DNA from: Sulfurimonas indica
Lineage (GTDB): Bacteria > Campylobacterota > Campylobacteria > Campylobacterales > Sulfurimonadaceae
Assembly (NCBI RefSeq): GCF_009192995.1
Contig: NZ_SDID01000008.1
Coordinates: forward strand, 1-64,000
Direction: 5' to 3'
Length of the DNA: 64,000 nt
Shown one piece after another: positions 20,825-24,679 of the stretch. The notes below the pieces were generated by a model that saw only the letters and a program-made list of their open reading frames with translations, did no database searches and was not told where the DNA came from. A program made the translations under genes and the position numbers. How positions within the stretch are numbered: position 1 is the stretch's first letter; each line of letters starts with the position of its first letter.

Positions 20825-21055
20825 TTATTTGCTTAAATTTTTCTTCTTTTTGGCATATTTGAGTAAAAAATGTGATATTTTTGTTTCTTTTAGTCCATAT
20901 CGTGCCTGTTTAAGGAGTTTTTTGAAGTTGAGTGTTGTAGGCTTAGAGATAATTAAAGCTGATAAATCTTTGAGCTTTTCATACTTTCCGACACTCTGAA
21001 TTGATAAAAATACATCCTCTAAACCATCTCTTTCATTCTTTGTAAGCGCACCCAT
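20825..21055 (-). CDS. small basic hypothetical protein paired with XRE regulator
   Basis: 76 residues, rich in Lys, with no cysteine, signal peptide or membrane segment (ALTKNERDGLEDVFLSIQS; C-terminal LLKYAKKKKNLSK). Its ATG overlaps the stop of the upstream XRE gene as TAATG, so the two are translationally coupled. I do not recognise a family. The pairing with a small HTH protein is reminiscent of two-component regulatory or toxin-antitoxin modules, but no toxin fold can be named. Confidence 0.6.
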   Translation of the reverse strand: MGALTKNERDGLEDVFLSIQSVGKYEKLKDLSALIISKPTTLNFKKLLKQARYGLKETKISHFLLKYAKKKKNLSK

Positions 21056-21297
21056 TATTTTTCCTCTAGTCTGTTGATTTTTCTCACTGCTCTAATGATC
21101 TCATCGTCATCCAACTTCCCCAACATCTTCATAACAACTGCAGCTGCCTGTGGTTTTGCACGGCCGAGTTTCCAGTCCTGATATGTACGCATAGAGACAC
21201 CCAACTCATTAGCCATATCTTTGAGTGATATTTTCTTGCCGTTGTTTTGAGACTCTATCGAGTTATGAAGAATATTAAACAGATCATCAATTTGCAT
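21055..21297 (-). CDS. XRE-family HTH transcriptional regulator
   Basis: 80 residues. The helix-turn-helix is clear: ISLKDMANELGVSMRTYQDWKLGRAKPQAAA (about residues 23-53). A short C-terminal helix follows. The -10 TATAAT (21310-21305) ends 7 nt before the ATG, overlapping an ATACGG motif that recurs as a palindrome at 21434-21449, so autoregulation and a leaderless mRNA are plausible. It is coupled to the 76-residue gene downstream. Confidence 0.75.
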   Translation of the reverse strand: MQIDDLFNILHNSIESQNNGKKISLKDMANELGVSMRTYQDWKLGRAKPQAAAVVMKMLGKLDDDEIIRAVRKINRLEEK

Positions 21298-21464: not shown

Positions 21465-21505
21465 AAGTAAGAAAAAAATAGCCTTCAAAAAAGAAGGCTG
21501 AAAAA
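21464..21505 (-). terminator. intrinsic terminator of the FapA-like operon
   Basis: AGCCTTC-TTTTTT-GAAGGCT on the minus strand is followed by ATTTTTTTC. The 7-bp stem begins 8 bp beyond the stop of the FapA-like gene. A textbook rho-independent terminator; A-rich flanks make it nearly symmetrical. Confidence 0.85.
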
Positions 21506-21506
21506 A

Positions 21507-23171
21507 TTATTCGATTGTCAGAGAAATTGCGGGAGGAAGTAGGGTGATTTTATTCTCTTCGATTTTTAGGTGAAATGGAAGATAGGCTTTGGCATCTGTT
21601 TTATAGTGCAGTTCATGCTCTTTATCAATAGTAAAGACTATGTGATTGAGGCCTCGAAAAGGTTGCTCTACAGAAATAGTTGCGTTCTTGTAGGAGTTCT
21701 TAATACTTTTTTCTTCTGCTTTGAGCGAGGCTATCTCATCTTCTAAAAGTTTGAGATTGTCGTACTTGAAACGTTTTGCCTGCTCTAACTTGTATTTTAA
21801 ATCATCCAACTCTTGTTTGATGTACTCTATTTTTGCTTTGAGCACAGGAATGTCTTGATAGCTGATCTTAAAAAGATTGTCCTCTCCACTTGCCAAACGA
21901 ACAGTAATCGAGTTTGATGCATAAACCTTGAGGTTGTTCTTTGTATGCCCAATCGTTACATCTTGTGCATAAACCTGTCCGCCCAAAGAGGATTCGATAT
22001 TGACTTTTGTTGCATGGATAATACCACCTTCAAGCAGACCTATTTCTGCCTTATGACAACGCAGGGTTCCTTTGTGCCGGTTTATCTTTGCAAATTTTGC
22101 ATACTGTTTGGAGTCTTGGTGTGTCGCGCCTTTGATTTCAAGCTGCATGGCTTCAAGCCTTGAGTTCGCACCGACAAATCCTTCAACATGAATGGACTCT
22201 GAGACAAGCTCTACACCTTCACCGATAGAATCTTTGGTCGTGTCGTGCTGTGCTACGATAATATCAATATTGTTCCCCTCGTCTTCCGTGTCAATAATAT
22301 GCTTATTACGTGATATCTCATGTAGTCGGAGTCTATTATCTACGGAGAGTTTTACTCCATCATAGTGTACATAACCACGATTGATACTGATGTAGCGTTT
22401 TGAATTGTTGTCCTCTTCAATACGTACAGATTTTGGGTCAATCTCTACATGGATATCAGAGTTTTGGGCATAGACAGTATCAATGTTTTTACCATAAGCA
22501 TTAAGACCGTTTCGCCCATACAGCGGTTTTTTGTACTCGATAAGTATCTCATCTTTGTCAACCTCGATGATCATACTGTCATGTTCTTTCTCTTTAAACC
22601 AGAATATAACTTTGCTCTCACGTGAGATAATAGGCTCAATTCCTTCAAAAAGAGGAATCTTTACTTTTTTTGTAAATTTACTGGCATAGAGATATTTCAC
22701 AAAATTTTTGAGTGTTTTTTTCATTTTCTCATCAAAGAGTTGGATGAGGATCTTATTGGAGGCTTTGATTTTATTTATCTCAATGTAAAGAAGTCGTAAC
22801 AACTCTACAGGTTTGTAAAGTTTGTAGGGTATTTTTGATTTAGGAGAGAGAATCAGTTTAGGGTGTGTTGCATACCTGCCATAGTCAATGCTATAGAGCA
22901 ACTCTACTTCCTGCTTCTCTTTTTGCATAGCTGTAATTGTATATATCTGAGCAAACTCGACATGTTCATTGATTATTTTGTCTCTATCAAGGTATTCAAG
23001 AAGGCGCTCTTTTGTATAGTGCTCAAACTCATGGCTTCTGTTGTTCTGAACAAGTGTTTCTACTTTGTTTATTGTAAAATCACACTCTGAAATAGGAAGG
23101 AGATTATCTGTAGCATAGCGACTCAGCGCATCTTTTATATGCTTTGTTTTGATAAGCTCTTTTGTCGGCAT
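21507..23171 (-). CDS. FapA-like (DUF342) protein
   Basis: 554 residues. The middle and C-terminal regions match the DUF342/flagellar assembly protein A family: GLNAYGKNIDTVYAQNSDI, repeated beta-helix-like segments (EGVELVSESIHVEGFVGANS; GGIIHATKVNIESSLGGQVYA; NLKVYASNSITVRLASGEDN) and then a coiled coil (about 450-500, LKAKIEYIKQELDDLKYKLE). No signal peptide. In other bacteria FapA-type proteins act as polar or cytoskeletal factors; the role here is unknown. It ends a three-gene operon with a cyclase-like protein. Confidence 0.82.
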   Translation of the reverse strand: MPTKELIKTKHIKDALSRYATDNLLPISECDFTINKVETLVQNNRSHEFEHYTKERLLEYLDRDKIINEHVEFAQIYTITAMQKEKQEVELLYSIDYGRYATHPKLILSPKSKIPYKLYKPVELLRLLYIEINKIKASNKILIQLFDEKMKKTLKNFVKYLYASKFTKKVKIPLFEGIEPIISRESKVIFWFKEKEHDSMIIEVDKDEILIEYKKPLYGRNGLNAYGKNIDTVYAQNSDIHVEIDPKSVRIEEDNNSKRYISINRGYVHYDGVKLSVDNRLRLHEISRNKHIIDTEDEGNNIDIIVAQHDTTKDSIGEGVELVSESIHVEGFVGANSRLEAMQLEIKGATHQDSKQYAKFAKINRHKGTLRCHKAEIGLLEGGIIHATKVNIESSLGGQVYAQDVTIGHTKNNLKVYASNSITVRLASGEDNLFKISYQDIPVLKAKIEYIKQELDDLKYKLEQAKRFKYDNLKLLEDEIASLKAEEKSIKNSYKNATISVEQPFRGLNHIVFTIDKEHELHYKTDAKAYLPFHLKIEENKITLLPPAISLTIE

Positions 23172-23175
23172 CTGC

Positions 23176-23880
23176 TTAATACTCTAAAAGATCACTGTAG
23201 TCATATTTTGAAAAGTTCAGATAGAGTTTGCCGTTTTGTTTGATGATGCGTACATCTTTGTCATAGACAGCAAGAAATCTTTTTTTGATGATTTTTCGCT
23301 GATAAGGTTCAAGATCAAGTCTTTTGAGGTACTCTTTTAACTCTACAATCTCATCTTCTGTTTTTTTCTCTTTTTTACTTATTTTTGTATCGACCACAGT
23401 GTCCACATCGTGGATAGTCTGTGAGTTTTGCGTAAGCAGTTGTCTGTTCATTAGCTCTAGGATATTTTTTAATTGCTCATCTTTTTTAGAGTAAACCTGT
23501 TCTATCTTATTCATCTCATCACGTAGCATTTGCTCTTTGTCATCAATGAGCTTGTCGATTTTTGCTTCAAGTTGAATGATTTTTTCTTTAAGTTGCTGAT
23601 TCTCTTTTTGATAGAGTGAGAGTACCATGGCAACTGTTGTTTTTGGTTTTTGTGGCATCTGTTTCACCTCTTTGTCTTGCTGTTTTGCTTCTTGTGTCTG
23701 TTCTTTTTTCTCTTTATGAATTGCTTCTCTTTTTTCTTTATCAAGTGAGCTTCTTGTAACAATGATGTAAGTTACTCCATCTTCTATGATATAGTTGAGT
23801 TTTTTTGCACGCAGCTTGGAGTTTATCATCTCTTTGGACATTTTAAAGTGTTTGGAATACTCATCTAAAGTCAGTCTCAT
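23176..23880 (-). CDS. HTH-like and coiled-coil protein, unknown role
   Basis: 234 residues. The N-terminus (MRLTLDEYSKHFKMSKEMIN) looks like a MerR- or excisionase-type DNA-binding helix pair followed by a short beta segment (LNYIIEDGVTYIIVTRSS). A long Lys/Glu/Gln-rich coiled coil occupies about 85-155 (ENQQLKEKIIQLEAKIDKL), and a conserved-looking C-terminal block ends KLYLNFSKYDYSDLLEY. It is 4 bp from the FapA-like gene and 27 bp from the cyclase-like gene. Possibly a scaffold or regulator; no enzymatic motif is seen. Confidence 0.6.
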   Translation of the reverse strand: MRLTLDEYSKHFKMSKEMINSKLRAKKLNYIIEDGVTYIIVTRSSLDKEKREAIHKEKKEQTQEAKQQDKEVKQMPQKPKTTVAMVLSLYQKENQQLKEKIIQLEAKIDKLIDDKEQMLRDEMNKIEQVYSKKDEQLKNILELMNRQLLTQNSQTIHDVDTVVDTKISKKEKKTEDEIVELKEYLKRLDLEPYQRKIIKKRFLAVYDKDVRIIKQNGKLYLNFSKYDYSDLLEY

Positions 23881-23907
23881 CTTGTTTGCTCCTTTATGCT
23901 GCAGCTT

Positions 23908-24558
23908 TTAAAATTTATATTTTGGAGGAGTAATTATACCTGATTTTCTCATCCATACTAAATAGCCTCGTTTTGTTAAGTTATGTTTGTCTTTAAAGAC
24001 ATAGGCTTCAGAGTGTTTAAACTCCCTTCTTTGTAAAAGTTCATTGTAATCTTCTCTTTTTTTGAGAAATTTTTTAAGATGTTCATATGCGATGTCAGAG
24101 ACCATAACCGTTGAGATGGTAAAATCTTTTAACTCTAAATATCTCGCACAGTCGTTAAGACCGTCTCCTATAAAGTTTTTATGTCCTAAAATGTCACGAA
24201 ACTGCTTGACTCCACCGGTATGAACTGCAATGCGAATACCATGAAAGTAAGGGAACATCTTTGCAATCTGGTCTGAGAAGTGGTTGAAACTCAGTCCAAG
24301 AATTACACCGTAGCCTTTGTACTTTGGATTGAGTATGCAGTAAAAACCGTCTCCTGTCGGAATAAAACCCATGATAAAACTCTCTAAAACTATCTCAGAA
24401 TGAGAGAGCATCTTCTCAATAACCTTACGGTAACTGCGTGTTAAAAACGAGATGATTTCAAGCTGCTGTTGTGAATCAAGTTTGGAAAAGTCAATGATGT
24501 CTATTAAAACAATATCGGTAGTGATCTCTCTTTTTGTTGTCATAATCAATTCTAACAT
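23908..24558 (-). CDS. class III nucleotide cyclase-like protein
   Basis: 216 residues, essentially one cyclase homology domain. Motifs in order: LIDIIDFSKL (first metal Asp), GFIPTGDGFYCIL (second metal Asp), IRIAVHTGGV and FIGDGLNDCARYLEL (the transition-state Asn and Arg). The usual purine-specifying Lys before GDG is replaced (FIPTGDG), so substrate choice is uncertain. There is no sensor or membrane domain. Start ATG 24558 or the internal ATG at 24543; neither has a strong ribosome site. First gene of the cyclase/coiled-coil/FapA operon. Confidence 0.75.
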   Translation of the reverse strand: MLELIMTTKREITTDIVLIDIIDFSKLDSQQQLEIISFLTRSYRKVIEKMLSHSEIVLESFIMGFIPTGDGFYCILNPKYKGYGVILGLSFNHFSDQIAKMFPYFHGIRIAVHTGGVKQFRDILGHKNFIGDGLNDCARYLELKDFTISTVMVSDIAYEHLKKFLKKREDYNELLQRREFKHSEAYVFKDKHNLTKRGYLVWMRKSGIITPPKYKF

Positions 24559-24582
24559 AAAGTTGTTTTAAATGAACTATAG

Positions 24583-24590
24583 ATTATAAT
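24583..24590. promoter_or_regulatory. bidirectional -10 ATTATAAT between the cyclase operon and fbaA
   Basis: The self-complementary ATTATAAT provides a TATAAT on each strand, 25 bp from the cyclase-like ATG on - and about 90 bp from fbaA on +. A second candidate for fbaA is TAAAAT near 24655. The stretch between has no gene. Confidence 0.45.
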
Positions 24591-24679
24591 TCCAAAAATA
24601 GACTTCTTGCACAATTTTTATTAGTTTCAAAGAACTAAAAAACGGTAAGATAATGTAAAATAAATTTTTAGGGAATAAA

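Follow-up and report, generated by a model that had tools for sequence, protein, structure and literature searches.

A conserved family of nucleotidyl cyclases with an unusual base pocket has been overlooked in the Sulfurimonadaceae, and this is the most valuable result of the present analysis. Its member in Sulfurimonas indica, here called CYC, lies in a window of 64,000 nucleotides (the whole stretch of DNA analysed) from a genome assembly of 2.09 Mb, next to genes for a helix-turn-helix (HTH) and coiled-coil protein, HTC, and for a FapA-family protein, FAP (Table 1). The locus is better described as a core of HTC with two partners, each lost independently and repeatedly, than as a three-gene system. 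The reading that we favour, at a probability of about 0.4, is of an HTC-centred operon in which CYC may provide, via HTC, a local cyclic-nucleotide signal bearing on flagellar or polar functions, with an activity and contacts that we infer.

The family escapes standard searches. Across 200 Sulfurimonadaceae genomes, the Pfam cyclase entry PF00211 is matched at 138 places in 90 genomes; none of these overlaps any of the 95 CYC places checked, and in 50 of the 94 genomes with CYC, PF00211 is not matched anywhere. A census of Campylobacterota signalling by PF00211 and PF01295 recorded only CHASE2-type adenylate cyclases (PMC9239204).

Table 1. Features of the CYC-HTC-FAP locus, in positions of the window
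Feature	Positions	Strand	Description
CYC	23908..24558	-	ORF; predicted divergent class III nucleotidyl cyclase, stand-alone; likely start 24543
HTC	23176..23880	-	ORF; N-terminal Xis/BldC-like winged HTH, long coiled coil, small C-terminal domain
FAP	21507..23171	-	ORF; short FapA-family protein, 554 aa
Terminator-like hairpin with T tail	21480..21499	-	directly after FAP stop
Promoter region with conserved extended -10	24544..24660	-	upstream of CYC
Small XRE-like HTH gene	21055..21297	-	downstream; conserved neighbour, 59/80 loci

The three genes lie on the minus strand with gaps of 27 bp (CYC-HTC) and 4 bp (HTC-FAP) in ORF coordinates and end in one terminator, just as the initial annotation had described them. 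The argument for the terminator is its position right after the last stop and not the scan, since the latter gave four hairpin sites against 2.6 expected. The second ATG of CYC is its likely start because the first five codons of the ORF differ in close relatives. Upstream, the extended -10 sequence is TTATGTTAGAAT in the window and TTATGCTAAAAT in many relatives; a -10-like hexamer precedes CYC in 64 of 77 loci, where shuffled sequences would give 27, and the same element stands before HTC in loci without CYC. An upstream inverted repeat, GTTC-N-GAAC, was dropped, being present in only 20 of 80 loci. Beyond the terminator come the small XRE-like HTH gene, for which, given that position, we do not claim membership of the operon, and then HU, an order kept across the family.

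Co-occurrence was assessed in the 200 family genomes and in 80 named loci. HTC is present in 180 of the genomes, CYC in 94 and FAP in 75, with CYC and FAP found together in only 32, so that a three-member system is not supported in the form originally proposed. The linkage part of that proposal fares better: CYC adjoins HTC in 86 of 86 genomes with listed coordinates of both, and FAP adjoins HTC in 63 of 64, but between the two partners there is no positive association. Within Sulfurimonas, 20 genomes have both, 20 CYC only, 39 FAP only and 19 neither (odds ratio 0.49, p 0.10, in the negative direction, uncorrected for relatedness, tree-based independent pairs of the two genes giving no statistical power). 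The genus of the Sulfuricurvum genomes has CYC in 36 of the 37 genomes carrying any of the three genes, and FAP is absent there. HTC lies directly downstream of CYC in 79 of the 80 named loci, bearing out the expected conservation of the operon in relatives; in the one locus that departs from this (L133), CYC is broken and lies close to the end of a contig. Of the 80 loci, 28 have FAP, which is shortened in one of them and truncated by the end of the contig in two. On the HTC tree, the CYC state changes at least six times on supported branches and 11 times on the best tree. Two genomes (G344 and G408) hold CYC relics without an open frame and so represent losses. Together, the relics and the 6-11 state changes indicate that CYC has been lost repeatedly, while intact copies are under purifying selection (dN/dS about 0.01-0.10 in close pairs). 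Since each partner adjoins HTC and CYC and FAP show no positive association, HTC is best seen as the core and the others as its separate partners.

The strongest competitor to the favoured reading, which we nevertheless think somewhat unlikely, is that CYC, though an active cyclase, is functionally unconnected with HTC and FAP, promoter and gene order having simply been inherited vertically. The whole neighbourhood, comprising nth, a methyltransferase gene, HU, a helicase-like gene and msrB, is conserved as well, so that gene order alone is weak evidence of a tie. CYC and FAP have been lost separately, and CYC-like genes occur in two loci of other families (L012 and L013) in whose genomes HTC was not found. 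Against this, CYC within the family is never apart from HTC in the 86 scorable genomes even though the upstream gene differs, being fba in Sulfurimonas and a pyruvate kinase-like gene in a Sulfuricurvum locus (L087), and the genes of the CYC-HTC area lie within tens of bases of each other in most loci. One of the two outside relatives (L013:1135-2133, 332 aa) is fused to a C-terminal coiled coil and adjoins a UDP-GlcNAc 2-epimerase-like gene.

The predicted fold of CYC places it among the class III nucleotidyl cyclases, as a divergent member. The AlphaFold2 model, built with 75 orthologs, has a pLDDT of 90 and a pTM of 0.88, and in a Foldseek search of the PDB its top matches are all class III cyclases (best E 2e-8), with AnPycC (8jsz) among the matches. 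Searched alone against Pfam, NCBIfam and PADLOC, CYC gave chance-level matches only. A profile of 13 orthologs matched adenylyl cyclase 9 in the PDB at E 0.14 but this match was gone with the profile of 75, so that the class III assignment is carried by the fold search and not by sequence profiles alone. An hhalign comparison with the canonical cyclase encoded in the same genome extended over the N-terminal part only, at a probability of 1.9%. A distant relative of CYC (L014) passes the PF00211 cut-off and matches the CYC profile at an hhalign E of 8e-10.

The catalytic residues, as mapped from alignments, are constant. The metal-binding Asp residues D20 and D70 and the transition-state pair N135 and R139, all recognised in the initial annotation along with the cyclase assignment itself, are invariant in 75 of 75 orthologs; so is K191, at the position of the C-terminal phosphate Lys, which had been missed. 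No substitution at these positions, of the kind that would have spoken against an enzyme, is thus seen in relatives. The register of N135 and R139 is backed by the alignment of L014 to the rhodopsin-guanylyl cyclase 5oyh. The canonical base-selecting positions hold Lys-Asp in enzymes acting on ATP, or Glu and a variable residue in those acting on GTP (PMC4215837); CYC has neither the adenylyl nor the guanylyl cyclase residues. At the first position, Lys in adenylyl cyclases, stands I66 in the window and Ile or Val throughout the 75 orthologs, in agreement with the earlier remark that the Lys is absent. At the second, an Asp to Asn change that went unremarked, N128 is invariant in the same set; on alignment of L014 to the rhodopsin-guanylyl cyclases 5oyh and 6sir, the base-selecting Cys/Asp column is likewise Asn, equivalent to N128 in CYC. 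No sensor domain is fused to CYC, as had been noted. Such a pattern would be expected of an active enzyme whose base pocket is altered, and the base itself cannot be read from it.

These data also bear on the idea that CYC has degenerated and lost catalysis, its cyclase fold now serving as a nucleotide-binding regulatory subunit of HTC. The disappearance of both base-selecting residues would fit it, as would the failure of Pfam's cyclase model to recognise the protein, but the five metal-binding and catalytic residues are all invariant, which a mere scaffold would not require, and we regard the idea as distinctly unlikely.

Comparison with known systems places CYC apart from each. With the class III cyclases of PF00211 it shares the fold, the two metal Asp residues, the transition-state Asn/Arg and a C-terminal Lys at the phosphate-binding place; it differs in having Ile/Val-Asn for Lys-Asp, in falling below Pfam detection and in having no fused sensor. 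The DUF2652 nucleotide-cyclase-like proteins are also short, cytosolic and class III-like and were likewise found by remote homology (PMC4886424), but CYC gave no match to DUF2652, and the mycobacterial members keep the Lys and lose the Asn whereas CYC has lost the Lys and kept the Asn (PMC4886424). Pycsar PycC resembles CYC in that its class III fold likewise lacks the purine-selecting pair. The specificity set of EaPycC, the only PycC whose residues were mapped here, comprises a Phe two residues ahead of the first metal Asp and an Arg four ahead of the second (PMC11224242); CYC has L18 and I/V66 at these places. No PycTM or PycTIR effector gene adjoins CYC, either in the window or in the two relatives whose loci were followed one gene at a time, the three window proteins have no PADLOC Pycsar match, and CYC, unlike Pycsar, has no mobile or defence context.

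A product other than cAMP or cGMP, or a new mode of base recognition, with signalling via the DNA-binding coiled-coil protein to flagellar or polar assembly, would be the most novel outcome, and we consider it a long shot; were it true, it would amount to a cyclic mononucleotide pathway not described before. That CYC is the pyrimidine cyclase of a Pycsar-like or other anti-phage system is very improbable, for although its purine-selecting pair is lost and the distant relative L014 directly follows a ThsB-type TIR gene, no PADLOC cyclase model matches CYC, phage and plasmid collections contain no match for it, its locus is fixed and of housekeeping character, and the EaPycC specificity residues are replaced by Leu and Ile/Val. 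The L014 locus (G043:C6, 890-2640) deserves mention in its own right: its TIR gene (PF08937, E 1e-15) is immediately followed by the gene for a cyclase-like protein of 384 aa with an unknown C-terminal domain, a candidate defence pair. Viral, phage and plasmid searches with CYC or the L014 protein gave no matches.

The initial description of HTC as an HTH and coiled-coil protein agrees with its AlphaFold2 model (pLDDT 85), in which a winged HTH is followed by a helix of 72 residues and then by a small C-terminal domain. Foldseek relates the HTH to BldC/Xis at a probability of 0.99-1.0 but with E about 0.2. HTC appears to be a distant relative of DUF3972, which matches 25 of 59 orthologs at E up to 0.1 (best 5e-5), singly scored members falling under the curated cut-off. 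Proteins of the RacA/KfrA type have an HTH followed by a coiled coil, and HTC may be likened to them by architecture, as a lead only. A paralog of HTC is encoded in the same genome (G000:C12, L135, 5935-6570), between yajQ-like and trkA-like genes, and in a Campylobacter-like genome (L137) a relative of this paralog precedes a lipoprotein gene which, from its position, looks like one of the Cj0371 family.

FAP was correctly assigned to the FapA family: the FapA_N domain scores 28.6 bits in the window protein, against a Pfam cut-off of 27, and matches 23 of 23 orthologs. A second FapA in the same genome, of 638 aa and encoded between murJ-like and ruvA-like genes, matches FAP at 3e-29. FAP thus resembles the FapA flagellar assembly protein in its FapA_N domain and shares a family with this paralog, but is shorter, occupies a separate locus and is tied to HTC; the β-solenoid entry PF03961 is absent among FAP families at E 0.1, while alignment to full-length FapA paralogs spans the region. 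In three loci (L107:7328-8050, L156:2367-2984 and L168:2304-3047), full-length FAP directly after HTC is replaced by FapA-like short frames of 205-247 aa that hold the C-terminal part only, without FapA_N. In another (L074:7467-9395), a 642-aa membrane protein, glycoside hydrolase/synthase-like, lies in the interval from HTC to the small HTH gene, the place of FAP in other loci; the gap there in L077 is similar in size.

The FAP partner may connect the locus to flagella. For Vibrio, FapA has been reported to be a flagellar factor recruited to the cell pole (PMC6877527 and references therein), and in flagellar operons FapA genes adjoin a gene for an HTH membrane protein (PMC11607428). Of our four association tests, one is that of CYC with FAP above and three concern flhA, which is present in 173 of the 200 genomes and absent from 27; all p values are uncorrected for relatedness. 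FAP is found in 75 of the 173 genomes with flhA and in none of the 27 without (p 2e-6), CYC in 87 and seven, respectively (p 0.02), and HTC in 157 and 23 (p 0.3). HTC itself is therefore not a flagellar gene. The seven CYC-bearing genomes without flhA are all drafts of 57-94% completeness, so that flhA may simply be unassembled in them. The confinement of FAP, and less clearly of CYC, to genomes with flhA is no more than suggestive of a flagellar tie, since genomes without flhA belong largely to a few genera and the pattern may represent few events. It is also all that speaks here for the polar or cytoskeletal complex suggested in the initial annotation.

In the favoured reading, the operon would be centred on HTC at a fixed chromosomal place in the Sulfurimonadaceae. 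CYC, divergent yet catalytically competent, would make a 3',5'-cyclic mononucleotide whose base is not assignable from sequence. Having no sensor domain of its own, it would most likely be held or switched by HTC, encoded directly after it, presumably by physical contact. Where present, FAP would be a second, separate partner linking HTC to flagellar or polar functions; its localisation and an effect of the locus on motility would be part of the same picture. Among the points that count against it are that no receptor for a cyclic nucleotide was identified in the operon, that the operon promoter looks sigma70-like, not sigma54, and that HTC is kept in most genomes without flhA.

A cyclase family present in about half of Sulfurimonadaceae genomes (94/200) has thus gone uncounted by standard searches. 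If CYC is active, cyclic-nucleotide signalling in the Campylobacterota has been undercounted, and some of the many CRP-like proteins of the phylum may have a source of ligand. The altered base pocket would then offer a direct test of base choice in class III enzymes.
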